A stretch of DNA of 27,707 nt, from positions 1 through 27,707 of IMG/VR virus record IMGVR_UViG_3300031227_000323. One strand, 5' to 3'. This DNA comes from a virus. The position numbers were made by a program, and so were the translations under genes. Shown piece by piece: positions 9,742 through 23,602 of the stretch; the stretch's first letter is position 1; the number at the start of each line of letters is the position of its first letter. The notes under the pieces are model-generated. The model was not told where the DNA came from, ran no database searches, and saw only the letters and a list, made by a program, of their open reading frames with translations.

Positions 9742-10512
9742 ATGCAAATTTACAAAATAACTAATCTTTTAAATGGAAAAATTTACGTTGGAAAGGATAA
9801 ACATGATAATGAAAATTATTATGGTTCAGGACTTATAATTAAACAATCAATTAAAAAATACGGAAAAGAACATTTCAAAAAGAAAATAATAGAAACTTGT
9901 TTATCTGAAAAAGAAATGGGAGAAAGAGAAGTTTTTTGGATAAATGAATTAAATTGTCTAGCTCCAGAAGGTTATAATATTTCTAGAAAATCATGGGGAG
10001 GAGATATTATTTCAAGACATCCTAATAGAAGAGAAATAATAGAAAAAATAAGAAAATCAAATACTGGAAAAAAAAGAACTCCGGAATTTTGTGAATTAAT
10101 GAGAGAAATAGGATCAAGTATTGATCCGGAAATTAGAAAAGAAGCTGGAAAAAAGGGAGCAGAAACTAGAAAAAAAAGAATAAAAGAAAAAGGATATACC
10201 CAAAAAGAACTTAAAAATTATGAAAATAACGCTAAACGATTAACCGAATTTAATAAAACTCAGGAGGCAAGAGAAAGAGTTTCTAAACAATTTAAAGGAA
10301 AAAAGAAAAAACCCTTTTCTAAAGAACATAAAACAAATATAGGAAAAGCTAGTAAAGGTAGAAAAATTCCAGGGAAAAAGGTAAATATAGAAGGTATTAA
10401 ATATGAAACATTACATGCTGCATCTAAAGAATTAAATATTTCCTTATCAACATTAAGAAATAGGTTATTAAGTAATTCTAAAAAGTTTATAAACTGGAGC
10501 TATAATGAGTAA
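9742..10512 (+). CDS. GIY-YIG homing endonuclease with NUMOD3 and NUMOD1 motifs
   Basis: A 256-residue protein. The GIY-YIG nuclease domain (about 1-90) has YKITNLLNGKIYVGK for the GIY and YVG strands, then NYYGSGLIIKQSIKKYGKEH with its catalytic-site helix, and a conserved Glu in EREVFWI. The NUMOD3-like DNA-binding stretches are short basic repeats such as KIRKSNTGKKRTPEF and KPFSKEHKTNIGKASKGRK. The last 40 residues (GIKYETLHAASKELNISLST) match NUMOD1, a helix-turn-helix module. It lies free-standing between the DinG-like helicase and a small membrane protein, not within an intron. It is one of five related genes here and has its own late-promoter-like element. Confidence 0.9.
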   Translation: MQIYKITNLLNGKIYVGKDKHDNENYYGSGLIIKQSIKKYGKEHFKKKIIETCLSEKEMGEREVFWINELNCLAPEGYNISRKSWGGDIISRHPNRREIIEKIRKSNTGKKRTPEFCELMREIGSSIDPEIRKEAGKKGAETRKKRIKEKGYTQKELKNYENNAKRLTEFNKTQEARERVSKQFKGKKKKPFSKEHKTNIGKASKGRKIPGKKVNIEGIKYETLHAASKELNISLSTLRNRLLSNSKKFINWSYNE

Positions 10513-12355: not shown

Positions 12356-13015
12356 ATGAGTAAAGTTTTTTACACTTATATAATTACGAATATGATATCA
12401 ACCAAACAATATGTTGGTAGTCATATATGTTATAAGAAAGATATTAATAATGATGGCTATATGGGATCAAGTAAATATCTTAATAAAGATTATAAAATAT
12501 ATGGCAAAGAAAATTTTACAAAAAGTATAATTAAAGAAGGTTATTTAAATTCAACGGAAATGTTAGAGTCTGAATCCCATTATATTTTAAAATATAATAC
12601 GTTAGCTCCTGTTGGATATAATAGATTTATTCCTAATAAAAAAATAGGATTTCACATGAGCGGGTTAAAAGCTAGTGAAAAAACTAAAGAAAAAATGAGT
12701 AAATCACATATAGGCAAAACTCATTCTATTGAAACTAAAGAAAAAATGAGGATGTCGCGAATAGGATTGAAAAAATCTAAAGAAACTAAAGAAAAAACAT
12801 CCGTATCAAGAAAACAGTGGTTTGAAAATAATGAAAATCCTATAAAAGGTAGAAAAAGACCTGATCTTTCTAAAAATAGAAAAGGCAAAAATAATCCTAT
12901 GTTTGGCACTCGTTGGGTAACAAACGGAGTAGAAAATACAAGAATTCTAACTAATGAAAATATCCCAATTGGGTGGAAATTAGGAAGACAATTAAAAATG
13001 CAAAAAAATAATTAA
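12356..13015 (+). CDS. GIY-YIG homing endonuclease with NUMOD3 repeats
   Basis: A 219-residue protein. The nuclease domain covers about 1-95: FYTYIITNMISTKQYVGSH, then GYMGSSKYLNKDYKIYGKEN, and Glu in ESESHYIL. Basic NUMOD3 repeats follow with the pattern S-x-E-T-K-E-K-M-x-x-S-(R/H)-I-G-(K/L). The C-terminus (GKNNPMFGTRWVTNGVENTR) is a module common at the ends of phage GIY-YIG and HNH homing enzymes, closing with IPIGWKLGR. The gene fills the space between the structural protein and the large acidic protein, and its stop lies 2 bases before the next ATG. It probably took over the late promoter that first served the acidic protein. Confidence 0.9.
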   Translation: MSKVFYTYIITNMISTKQYVGSHICYKKDINNDGYMGSSKYLNKDYKIYGKENFTKSIIKEGYLNSTEMLESESHYILKYNTLAPVGYNRFIPNKKIGFHMSGLKASEKTKEKMSKSHIGKTHSIETKEKMRMSRIGLKKSKETKEKTSVSRKQWFENNENPIKGRKRPDLSKNRKGKNNPMFGTRWVTNGVENTRILTNENIPIGWKLGRQLKMQKNN

Positions 13016-17927: not shown

Positions 17928-18773
17928 ATGAACTTTGTGTATTTAACAACTAATTTAGAAAATGGAAAACAATATGTTGGAAGTCATGAAGGAGATATAA
18001 GTGATAATTATCTAGGTAGTGGAATTTTAATATCTAAAGCTATTAAAAAATATGGTAACGGGAAATTTAAAAGAGAAATCTTAGAAGAATGTAAGCCTAA
18101 TGATAACTTAATATTAGAAGAAAAATATATAAATAAGTATGATACTTTAATTCCTAATGGATATAATATTTCTCCAACAGGAGGAATTAGAGCAGGTGGA
18201 AGACATTCTGAAGAATCAAAGAGAAAAATTAGTAAATCAAGTATTGGTAAAGCTCCTACTAGAAAAGGGGTTAAACTCTCTGATAAAACTAAAGAAAAAT
18301 TACGAAAAGTACAATTAGGAAGAACTCATTCTAATAAAACTAAAGAAAAAATTAGCATGTCAAAAAAAGGGCAAGTTTCTCCAAGAAAGGGTATTAAATT
18401 AACAGAAGAGCATAAAGAAAAAATCAGTGAATCTAAAAGAAAAAATCCAGTAACTAAGGTTAATCATACTCCAGAAGGTTTAGAACGAATTAGACAGGCA
18501 ATGAAAACTCGAATAGTATCTGATGAAACAAAGAGAAAAATAAGTAAATCATTAAAAGGGAGAGAAGTCTGGAATAAAGGAAAACAACATTCTGAAGAAT
18601 CTAAGCAAAGAATGAGTGAAGCTAAAAAAGGAACCATGAAAGGAAAAAATAACCCAATGTATGGAAAATCTCCTTATGATATTTGGATAGAAAAATATGG
18701 AAAAGAAGAAGCAGACAAACGAAAAAACGCTCTTTATGAAAAACGTAGTAAAAATAGAAGAATAAAATCATGA
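17928..18773 (+). CDS. GIY-YIG homing endonuclease with many NUMOD3 repeats, inserted at the gp4 start
   Basis: A 281-residue protein. The nuclease domain (about 1-88) reads MNFVYLTTNLENGKQYVGSH, NYLGSGILISKAIKKYG and EEKYINKYDTLIPNGYN. About seven NUMOD3 repeats follow (H-S-E-E-S-K-R-K-I-S-K-S-x-x-G and variants), ending MKGKNNPMYGKSPYDIWIEK. The nuclease domain is closest to the copy at 20550, sharing NGKQYVGSH and TLIPNGYNISPTGG, so those two are recent relatives. Its TGA stop overlaps the gp4 start as ATGA, so the insertion rebuilds a coupled start codon for the displaced gene. It has its own late-promoter-like element. Confidence 0.92.
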   Translation: MNFVYLTTNLENGKQYVGSHEGDISDNYLGSGILISKAIKKYGNGKFKREILEECKPNDNLILEEKYINKYDTLIPNGYNISPTGGIRAGGRHSEESKRKISKSSIGKAPTRKGVKLSDKTKEKLRKVQLGRTHSNKTKEKISMSKKGQVSPRKGIKLTEEHKEKISESKRKNPVTKVNHTPEGLERIRQAMKTRIVSDETKRKISKSLKGREVWNKGKQHSEESKQRMSEAKKGTMKGKNNPMYGKSPYDIWIEKYGKEEADKRKNALYEKRSKNRRIKS

Positions 18774-20549: not shown

Positions 20550-21251
20550 TTGAAAACTTATAATTTCACGTACATTACAACTAATCTTATTAATGGAAAA
20601 CAATATGTTGGCTCTCATGCAACTAATAATTTAAATGATGGCTATCTTGGGAGTGGTAAGTTAATTTTGAAAGCAGTTCAAAAATATGGAAAATCTAATT
20701 TCAAGATTGAAATACTTGAAGAGGATGAAAATATACTCAATATGAGAAAACTTGAGGAACATTATATCATAAAAAATAAGACGCTAATACCTAACGGTTA
20801 TAATATTAGTCCTACGGGTGGGCATGATTTTCCTGGTGCTGATTTACACGACTCCACTAAGAAAAAAATAGGAGATAAAAATAGAGGAAAAATAAGATCG
20901 GACGAAACCAAGCAAAAAATAAGTATTAGCTGTAAAGGGATTCAATCAGGTAAAAAACATCCTTTTTATGGAAAACATCATACTCCAGAAACTTTAGAAC
21001 GAATATCTAAGAATAGAAAGGGTAAAACTGGAGGGGAAAATCATCATTACTTCGGAAAATCTAGAGATGAAAAAACAAAAAAGAAAATCAAGCAATCTTT
21101 AACCGGTCGCAAAACACCAGATGAGGTAAAAAAGAAACTAAGTGAAGCATCTAAAAATGTTAAAAAAATAAAATGCGATCACTGTGGTAAAGAATTTACC
21201 CCCTGGGGATTAAAACGACATACAATTTCATTAGGAAATAAGGATATATAA
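20550..21251 (+). CDS. GIY-YIG homing endonuclease with NUMOD3 repeats and a C-terminal zinc-finger-like end
   Basis: A 233-residue protein starting at TTG (no in-frame ATG precedes the nuclease domain). The GIY-YIG domain reads YNFTYITTNLINGKQYVGSH, then GYLGSGKLILKAVQKYG, and Glu in KLEEHYII. NUMOD3 repeats follow (DETKQKISISCKG, KHPFYGKHHTPETLERIS and others). The last 30 residues hold CDHCGKEFTPWGLKRH, a C-x2-C...H zinc-finger-like module. The stop codon lies inside the element GGATATATAAATAAAC, so the gene's end supplies or preserves the promoter of the portal gene. It is closest to the copy at 17928. Confidence 0.9.
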   Translation: MKTYNFTYITTNLINGKQYVGSHATNNLNDGYLGSGKLILKAVQKYGKSNFKIEILEEDENILNMRKLEEHYIIKNKTLIPNGYNISPTGGHDFPGADLHDSTKKKIGDKNRGKIRSDETKQKISISCKGIQSGKKHPFYGKHHTPETLERISKNRKGKTGGENHHYFGKSRDEKTKKKIKQSLTGRKTPDEVKKKLSEASKNVKKIKCDHCGKEFTPWGLKRHTISLGNKDI

Positions 21252-21278: not shown

Positions 21279-23075
21279 ATGGCTGGGTTCACTTTAAGAA
21301 ATTTAGACGGAAGACCATCAGGTTTTATAGCAAACATACAACGTAACATTCGATATTTTTCAGCTATTGGAATGAAGTACGATGATAAAATCATCAAACA
21401 ATCTAAGGCTGTTGGTATTACAGAGGCTACTGAGGATAACATGTATAGTTTATATGGTCAATCCCAGATATTCTCAGGATCTGATATTGGTCAAAAGGAA
21501 TTCATTGCTTATTATGATAAAGAATATCCTACACGTAGAGATTTCTTACGTAGATTTGCAATGAATGGTGAGATTGAACATATCTTAGAGGTAATTGCTG
21601 ATGAAACAATAGTATATGATGATAACAACTATTTTGCATATCCAAACACAAAAGTTTTAAAATCAGTTTTAAAAGAAGATAAAGCCAAAGTTATTATAGA
21701 TGATCTAAATGCAGCATATAAAAAGATTTATTACGCATTTGGATTTAATAACGGACACGATGCTTGGCATTATTGTAAAAAACTTTTAATTGATGGATTC
21801 TTAGCATTTGAAATTATTTACGACGTAGATGAAAAAGACAATGCAAATAATGTACTTGGATTTAAAGAACTTGATCCAGTTTCATTAGAACCAGAATTAA
21901 AGAAAGATGAAGAAGGAAATGAATATAAAGTATGGGTTCAGTATAGAGGTGATTCTGAAAGACAAAGAGAATTATTAGATGCTAACTTAATTTATATCTC
22001 TTGGGCAAGAACAAACTTTATTTCAAGATTATCATATGTTGAAAGATTAGTACGTTCTTTTAATATGCTCAGAACTCTTGAAAATTCAAGAATTATTTGG
22101 AATGTAATTAATTCACAATATAGAATGAAGATTGTAGTACCTATTGGAACACAATCCGAAGCCAAAGCAAGAACAAGATTAGCAGAATTACGTGGTATGT
22201 ATAAAGAGGATATCACAATTGCAGATGAATCAGGAGAGGTTACTGTAAATGGTCAACCAAACTTCTCATTTGCTAAAACCTATATACTTCCATCTAAAGA
22301 TGGAACCCAGACAGAAATTGATTCATTTAAACCTGAAGGTTATAACTTATCTGATACTGATTCACTTAAGTATTTCTGGATGAGATTTATCGTAGAATCA
22401 AAAGTTCCCGAAAGTAGATTTAGTAGCAGTTTCGAAAGTTCCGACGGCGGTGGCGGCGGGGGTGGTGAATGGTCTAGTGGCAGTGATAGTATTGCCAGAG
22501 AAGAAATGAGATTTTCATATTTCATTAGTCGTATCAGATCAATGTTTAAAGAAATTCTTCTTAAACCTACTTGGTACCAATTTATACTTAAACATCCCGA
22601 ATTTAAGGAAGATATGAACCTTAAAGGAGCGATTGGACTTTTATTCGTTGAAGAAAATTTATTTAAGATTGCTAAAGAAAGAGAAATTGCTCATGCTGGG
22701 GCTAATTTAATTAGTACATTATCAGGAATTACCCACCCAAGTGTTGGTCCTGATGGATCTCCGGTCGATGTTCCATTCTTTGATCCTAAGTTTTTAATAG
22801 AGAAATATATGCAAATGTCAGATATTGATCTAGCTCTTAATGACAAATATAGAAAAGAAAGACAATCAGAAATCCAGAAATTAATGACTGCTTATGGCAG
22901 ATTAAATAAAGCTAATGGAACTGGTGAAGAAGGAGCCGGAGGTGGAGACGAATTCGGTGGAGATATGGGTGGAGGTGGAGACTTCGGTGGAGGAGACTTC
23001 GGCGGTGGAGAAGATATGGACATGGGTGGAGATGATCTTGGCCTTGGCGATGAAGAGGGATCTACTGATCTTTAA
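21279..23075 (+). CDS. 20: Portal vertex protein gp20
   Basis: A 598-residue protein with the T4 gp20 layout. The N-terminal part includes YPTRRDFLRRFAMNGEIEHI and ETIVYDD. A stem and crown region follows (GFLAFEIIYDVDEK, LDPVSLEPE, YISWARTNFISRLSYVER). The clip/wing segment has YILPSKDGTQTEIDSF and YFWMRFIVESKVPESRF, the gp20 core near KYF. Next is a loop with seven consecutive glycines (22446-22466) and REEMRFSYFISRIR before the C-terminal helices. The portal forms a 12-mer at one head vertex through which DNA is packaged. The C-terminal 50 residues are Gly/Asp/Glu-rich and end DDLGLGDEEGSTDL, an extension not typical of T4. A late promoter with TATAAATA precedes it. Confidence 0.9.
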   Translation: MAGFTLRNLDGRPSGFIANIQRNIRYFSAIGMKYDDKIIKQSKAVGITEATEDNMYSLYGQSQIFSGSDIGQKEFIAYYDKEYPTRRDFLRRFAMNGEIEHILEVIADETIVYDDNNYFAYPNTKVLKSVLKEDKAKVIIDDLNAAYKKIYYAFGFNNGHDAWHYCKKLLIDGFLAFEIIYDVDEKDNANNVLGFKELDPVSLEPELKKDEEGNEYKVWVQYRGDSERQRELLDANLIYISWARTNFISRLSYVERLVRSFNMLRTLENSRIIWNVINSQYRMKIVVPIGTQSEAKARTRLAELRGMYKEDITIADESGEVTVNGQPNFSFAKTYILPSKDGTQTEIDSFKPEGYNLSDTDSLKYFWMRFIVESKVPESRFSSSFESSDGGGGGGGEWSSGSDSIAREEMRFSYFISRIRSMFKEILLKPTWYQFILKHPEFKEDMNLKGAIGLLFVEENLFKIAKEREIAHAGANLISTLSGITHPSVGPDGSPVDVPFFDPKFLIEKYMQMSDIDLALNDKYRKERQSEIQKLMTAYGRLNKANGTGEEGAGGGDEFGGDMGGGGDFGGGDFGGGEDMDMGGDDLGLGDEEGSTDL

Positions 23076-23359: not shown

Positions 23360-23575
23360 AATGAGGCCCGACGTAAATTCGTCTAGTTATCAGGATAATA
23401 TGTAAGACCAGGGTTCGACTCCCTGCATCTCCACTAATTTTATAAGATCATTCGGGGATGACTTGGCTTTTGATTGCATATGAAAGTAGTAATGAGCAAG
23501 CTTCAGCAACGCACTAAACGGCGTACAAACAGAAATGGCGATGGCTGCCTAAGAGGCACCATCCCAAGGAGACTT
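23360..23575 (+). ncRNA. ssrA: Circularly permuted (two-piece) tmRNA
   Basis: The order is acceptor half, spacer, coding half, as in two-piece tmRNAs. The T arm is CAGGG-TTCGACT-CCCTG (23409-23425). Acceptor strands CATCTCC (23426-23432) and GGGGATG (23454-23460) pair over 7 bases, with G-U at position 3-70, the alanine identity element, and A as discriminator. Helix P2 is TTGCATAT (23474-23481) with ATATGTAA (23398-23405), 8 pairs. The region between GGGGATG and P2 reads ACTTGGCTTTTGA, matching the tmRNA D region. A frame ending QTEMAMAA-TAA (stop 23550-23552) gives the proteolysis tag. Its stop codon lies in the loop of a P5-like hairpin (23540-23549 with 23555-23563, one bulge). A CAAG-GAGA-CTTG hairpin follows. 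The encoded 3' end is ACTA, so CCA would have to be added or repaired. The spacer is 23434-23453. Outer boundaries are approximate. Confidence 0.85.
23526..23552 (+). other. tmRNA tag reading frame
   Basis: This frame encodes QTEMAMAA followed by TAA. The resume codon cannot be fixed by eye: the open frame extends upstream through NALNGV, but a stem ACGC/GCGT (23509-23512 and 23521-23524) that may be part of pseudoknot 1 suggests the tag starts after 23524. The hydrophobic M-A-A end resembles the -LAA or -VAA ends of known tags recognised by ClpXP. Confidence 0.65.
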
Positions 23576-23602
23576 GCCCCCAGCCTTAATGGGGGCTTTT
23601 TT
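23576..23602 (+). terminator. Rho-independent terminator of the tmRNA gene
   Basis: GCCCCCA (23576-23582) and TGGGGGC (23590-23596) pair around GCCTTAA, followed by TTTTTT. It is the strongest terminator in the window and ends the RNA gene just before the next promoter. Confidence 0.93.

Follow-up and report, generated by a model that had tools for sequence, protein, structure and literature searches.

Predicted circularly permuted tmRNA genes in a clade of T4-like phages with likely Bacteroidota hosts

Permuted tmRNA genes have been described in three main lineages of bacteria and in mitochondria. Phage examples, including T4-like ones, are also already known, from Melnitz, Mosig, cyanophages and Stenotrophomonas phages: two-piece tmRNA was reported in Melnitz and its relatives, together with 53 calls that ARAGORN made across a database of phages (PMC9004378), and part of another report describes tmRNAs carried by huge phages (PMC7162821). 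The Rfam family of permuted tmRNAs, RF04321, was defined in PMC11915505. In our own analysis, permuted tmRNAs were verified by model and by ARAGORN in Mosig, S-CAM1, BUCT628 and DLP_6; tmRNA annotations are present in 160 kb Stenotrophomonas phages, and the Stenotrophomonas phages Marzo and Moby have near-identical T-arm DNA. Here we describe a gene within positions 23360-23602 of the window, by which we mean the whole 27,707-base stretch of DNA that was analyzed, a fragment that is itself the IMG/VR record. With a rough probability of 0.86, we read it as a functional tmRNA gene of the circularly permuted, two-piece kind, from a Bacteroidota phage that is T4-like and probably jumbo, based on its match to RF04321, the matches in its relatives, covariation and the conservation of the tag.

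The original prediction of a permuted tmRNA, which had been made from the letters of the window, was borne out by RF04321, which matched positions 23385-23552 with 58 bits (cut-off 47; E 5.1e-9) in an alignment covering the full length of the model, and by covariation in the relatives. The acceptor half (23409-23433) comes before the spacer (23434-23453) and the coding half (23454-23552), and given that the halves are reversed, the order of a one-piece tmRNA, in which the coding part lies between the tRNA-like halves, was ruled out. The positions predicted for the acceptor stem, T arm, 20-base spacer, P2, tag frame and stop hairpin proved exact to the base (Table 1); the 7-bp acceptor stem with G3.U70, the 8-bp P2 between the halves and the EMAMAA-stop ending with its stop codon in a hairpin loop were all recovered, and an intrinsic terminator that had been absent from the first list of features was added. 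CCA is not encoded in the gene, the acceptor stem being followed by A-CTA. In nearly all relatives there is a terminator-like hairpin in the same place, with a changed stem sequence. Pseudoknots are expected of many tmRNAs; a candidate long-range helix of this kind was spotted by eye and did not look consistent across sequences.

Searches with Rfam and ARAGORN had been proposed together with the original prediction, and each gave a divided result. RF04321 was above its cut-off, but the lineage models were not: cyano_tmRNA reached 40.3 of 70 on the window, and alpha_tmRNA and beta_tmRNA had no match to it among the matches listed, nor among these, which keep the higher-scoring of overlapping clan members, did RF00023, the standard one-piece tmRNA. 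ARAGORN called no gene in the window, but it did call a permuted tmRNA in 22 related loci. Weak Rfam matches in the window to ceN65, Thr_leader and sR2 were rejected as chance.

Table 1. Predicted features of the permuted tmRNA gene and its portal neighbor, in window coordinates
Feature	Position	Strand	Basis
Portal protein gene (T4 gp20 family), upstream neighbor	21279..23075	+	phrog_213, 173 bits
Candidate 5' hairpin of acceptor-half precursor, GACG-taaatt-CGTC	23370..23383	+	folding; hairpin visible here in most closer relatives
P2 3' strand ATATGTAA, partner of 23474-23481	23398..23405	+	8/8 pairs in window
T arm CAGGG-TTCGACT-CCCTG, 5-bp stem, TTCGACT loop	23409..23425	+	stem 94% paired; both-side changes in 5/5 pairs
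Acceptor stem 3' strand CATCTCC (23426-23432) and discriminator A (23433)	23426..23433	+	217/217 cells paired (31 sequences)
Intervening sequence (spacer), 20 nt, putatively removed in maturation	23434..23453	+	by reference to known permuted tmRNAs (PMC11915505)
Acceptor stem 5' strand GGGGATG, start of coding half, putative RNase P site	23454..23460	+	7/7 pairs, G3.U70; RF04321 match, relatives
D-like region ACTTGGCTTTTGA	23461..23473	+	TTTGA(C/T)-type
P2 5' strand TTGCATAT	23474..23481	+	8/8 pairs with ATATGTAA
Tag frame GGC...TAA = GVQTEMAMAA-stop, predicted resume codon GGC	23520..23552	+	frame kept in 31/31 sequences
P5-like hairpin, 9 bp, one bulged C, stop codon in loop	23540..23563	+	folding and third-base covariation
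Intrinsic terminator GCCCCCA-GCCTTAA-TGGGGGC-TTTTTT	23576..23602	+	fold

A T4-like phage as the source, as had been predicted, is supported by the gene content of the window, which includes the portal gene (phrog_213), SbcC/SbcD-like genes, a DnaB-like helicase, a DNA end protector and a head closure gene. Upstream of the tmRNA gene are the portal gene and then a small ORF, and on its other side is an ORF of unknown function. Interspersed with the T4-like genes are four genes for homing endonucleases of the GIY-YIG type (phrog_314; window 9742-10512, 12356-13015, 17928-18773 and 20550-21251). Another feature of the window is the repeat ATATAAAATAAA, which occurs 14-23 bases before ORF starts (window 6353, 9722, 12335, 16946, 17914 and 23619) and is perhaps a late promoter or a translation signal. 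No Shine-Dalgarno-like sequence was found directly before the window ORFs. Since the window is a 27.7-kb fragment, its host was predicted from relatives, and the named relatives of the portal protein include Lak/Prevotella, Tenacibaculum and Chryseobacterium phages. The predicted Bacteroidota host is consistent with these portal relatives, with the lack of Shine-Dalgarno-like sequences and with the Bacteroidota-like tag, all of them indirect indications. Related phage records reach 260-405 kb, and the source phage was probably jumbo.

Related IMG/VR contigs were reached via the portal protein, the longest with a tmRNA match being 405 kb. RF04321 matches were present in 11 of 14 records in a first set and 25 of 50 in a second, in most cases a short distance downstream of the portal gene. 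In the second set the gene was found in 25 of the 27 records at a portal identity of at least 63% and in none of the 23 at 50% or less, and RF04321 found no match in 11 relatives, either named or huge, whose portal identities were 45% or less (Lak, PTm1, PAU, MA9V-2 and others). Given this distribution, the tmRNA gene seems either to have been acquired by a single phage clade or to have persisted there. No near copies of the window gene were found in IMG/VR by DNA pattern. A tie of the clade to the bS21 lake phages (PMC9723584) was considered and dropped, a crude motif scan having yielded no convincing bS21 gene.

A comparison of P2 and the acceptor stem among related phages had also been proposed, and both were found to covary. 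Across 31 distinct tmRNA sequences the acceptor stem was paired throughout, with pairs 4 to 7 altered on both sides, and pair 3 was G.U (G3.U70) in all 31 although the neighboring pairs vary. With one bulge allowed, P2 had 224 pairs, versus 172 (sd 6.5) when its strands were swapped between sequences, none of 2000 swaps being as high, and seven of its eight pairs had changes on both sides. The covariation score of the tRNA-like core was 0.512 versus 0.158 (sd 0.016) for shuffled sequences and at most 0.18 for slid controls; the shuffles keep relatedness in, which affects neither the slid controls nor the complete pairing of the acceptor stem. The count made in a fixed register was lowered by four T arms with an apparent 6-base loop and by nine bulged P2 helices.

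The tag frame was also conserved. From the AAA(C/T) motif and resume codon to the stop the length was 30, 33, 36 or 39, in frame in all 31 sequences, and the presumed resume codon was GGC in 25 of them. The tag ended in Ala-Ala-stop in 30 of 31, with synonymous variety, the last codon occurring with each of the four possible third bases. In 29 of 31 sequences this third base made a standard pair with the nucleotide at position +3 beyond the stop, versus 12.8 (sd 2.5) when shuffled, and the pair types were T-A, C-G, G-C and A-T, i.e., all four Watson-Crick combinations. The covariation at the third base and the in-frame changes in length together indicate that the hairpin with the stop codon in its loop is real and that the frame is selected as a tag. 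From these comparisons, the tRNA-like domain, tag frame, stop-codon hairpin and terminator are judged to be kept under selection in the phage clade.

These patterns bear directly on other explanations of the gene. A decaying or passively inherited copy without function would fit with the window gene having been missed by ARAGORN, but such a copy is hard to reconcile with perfect acceptor stems, extensive both-side changes across the clade and retention of the gene in 25 of 27 records at the higher portal identities, and we regard it as very improbable. Only slightly more credible is a decoy, in which the RNA would bind SmpB or the ribosome and block host trans-translation with the tag being incidental. 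A TLD-only RNA like that of phage DS6A, which is reported to inhibit tmRNA strongly, provides a precedent (PMC4131195), and with no SmpB gene found in the phages the RNA would compete with host tmRNA for SmpB; however, a decoy would not need a tag frame conserved in 31 of 31 sequences, Ala-Ala in 30 of 31 and the stop hairpin in about 29 of 31.

A further possibility is a sub-case of the functional tmRNA that we favor, in which the RNA works and its main role is different tagging, the EMAMAA-type end versus the NYALAA of the host shifting the protease or adaptor, or the rate. The phage tags mostly have a Bacteroidota-like start (G, often GE) and an Ala-Ala end, and some, such as GENSYALQMAA, resemble the host GENNYALAA. 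Supporting different tagging is that YALAA is replaced in them by xMAMAA/xMAA-type ends, but the phage ends still resemble ClpXP-type signals, and we consider this main role rather unlikely. For a functional permuted tmRNA the most likely benefit would be that ribosome rescue is maintained in infection, when cleaved messages are abundant, with the tag set by the phage. We know of no permuted tmRNA from a phage for which tagging of proteins during infection has been demonstrated.

A gene for SmpB was not found in the eight phage records searched (three of them 260-405 kb), and the same search did identify SmpB in a Bacteroidota host genome; as such, the phage RNA would need host SmpB, EF-Tu, AlaRS, RNase P and CCA-adding enzyme. 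By analogy with two-piece tmRNA biology (PMC11915505), a single precursor would be transcribed, ending at the terminator (23576-23602), its spacer would be removed by RNase P and 3' processing, CCA would be added by the host, and the two RNAs would be held together via the acceptor stem and P2. Host AlaRS would charge the acceptor piece through G3.U70, and host SmpB and EF-Tu would bring the charged RNA to stalled ribosomes, which would restart translation at GGC, append GVQTEMAMAA and terminate at the UAA in the P5 loop, with the tagged product passing to host proteases.

In the relatives the spacer is 15-186 nt long, and it has structured segments that are common to several of them in different combinations. 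A 24-base element, GCTAAYCCGTCGCGTTAGTACGGT (variant ...CGCTTTAG...), was identified by exact and looser patterns in 15 IMG/VR contigs, each of which also has a match to permuted tmRNA. Four of these belong to the T4-like clade (L258, L268, L272 and L274), and the other 11 (L292, L294-L298 and L301-L305) have RF04321 matches with E of 0.001 or better, eight of them above the cut-off. In at least 14 of the 15 contigs the element is flanked by the two acceptor strands, the halves of L297 (28.9 bits) and L303 having not been properly assigned by script and only L303 having been settled by eye. Searches of 396 Bacteroidota genomes, of named phages and of plasmids did not turn up the element; it has no Rfam family, and the 20-base spacer of the window does not contain it. 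Read by eye, its fold would pair CTAA with TTAG and CCGT with ACGG in a pseudoknot-like manner. At least five further structured spacer segments are shared as if exchanged (L023/L027, L028/L276, L029/L269, L257/L261/L269 and L253/L271). For another segment, module B, five extra IMG/VR matches were without a tmRNA and appear to be accidental. A second group of phage permuted tmRNAs was also observed (L294, L296, L298, L301, L302, L304 and L305), with tags such as GKTINLFREVAIAA. We speculate that the phage genes form a separate permutation lineage derived from a one-piece gene of Bacteroidota, in which the spacer serves as an exchange site for structured RNAs, including a 24-base element exclusive to permuted tmRNAs, that would aid precursor processing or regulation. 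Taken as a whole, this proposal is tentative and falls somewhat short of an even chance.

The statement accompanying the original prediction that Bacteroidota use one-piece tmRNA was upheld in our sample. ARAGORN called the one-piece form in 23 of 25 Bacteroidota loci and the permuted form in none, these loci having been picked by the Bacteroidota tag pattern, which favors genes with that tag, and RF04321 had one match in 396 Bacteroidota genomes (L158 in genome G251; E 1e-6). That permuted tmRNA has the tag GKVIQMNNAPVRLAA and adjoins tRNA-Met, tRNA-Ile and small ORFs in a region that may be prophage-like; the same genome also has a one-piece tmRNA gene (160 bits). A phage lineage in one-piece hosts would point to a gene arrangement carried, and perhaps created, by phages and absent from their hosts, even as the SmpB, AlaRS and proteases of the host are used. 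The altered tag makes phage resetting of ribosome rescue and proteolysis in infection testable, and the spacer elements may reveal a role for a segment so far taken as waste.

The phage clade shares with the alpha/beta/cyano-type permuted tmRNAs (RF04321) the same order of halves, the G.U acceptor stem, the T arm, P2 and the Ala-Ala tag end. It differs from them in that all listed lineage-model scores are below gathering (alpha 49.8 of 50 in L258, beta 49.6 of 84 in L021 and, in the window, the cyano score given above), and in its D region, which is of the TTTGA(C/T)-type with TTCGAC in none of the 31 sequences, whereas alpha/beta/cyano-type phage copies have TTCGAC. Mosig, a pelagimyophage, and Melnitz, a methylophage, have a permuted tmRNA in T4-related myophages, as here (PMC9004378), but the Mosig gene is alpha-type by model (67.6 bits), with the tag GEDNFALAA and a TTCGAC D region, in other phages and hosts; the tmRNA of Melnitz has a source that is not its host's lineage (PMC9004378). 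Those of DLP_6, a Stenotrophomonas phage, and BUCT628, an Acinetobacter phage, are likewise permuted but beta-type by model (94-104 bits), with the tags ANDDSFAPMAIAA and ANDNVFGAKTLAA, respectively. The annotated tmRNA of the crAss-like cr130_1 (L002 2452-2842) is permuted, in a likely Bacteroidota phage, and has a TTTGAT D region and a low lineage-model score; unlike the phage clade, it has a tRNA-like sequence inside the spacer and another tag, and belongs to an unrelated phage group.

The Bacteroidota one-piece tmRNA (tag GENNYALAA) resembles the phage clade in its resume context, TAAAC/T-GGC-GAA, its GEN... tag start and its TTTGAC D region, with TT(T/A)GAC in 108 of 114 one-piece sequences and TTCGAC in none, but it is not permuted, ends in YALAA and scores 129-160 bits with RF00023. 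A tree of the tRNA-like domains, which is poorly resolved on its 70 columns, gives a hint as to origin: nine phage sequences were placed with Bacteroidota one-piece sequences (SH-aLRT 94, bootstrap 83) and apart from five alpha/beta/cyano-type phage sequences, and the 31 phages did not form one group. Given that the alpha-type tmRNA of Mosig also has a GE... tag, the tag alone is no proof of a Bacteroidota origin. The lineage scores, D region and tag start together suggest that a separate permutation of a Bacteroidota gene is likely. What is new in comparison with the described systems is a permuted lineage in Bacteroidota phages that scores under the alpha, beta and cyano cut-offs and has a Bacteroidota-like tag start and D region.
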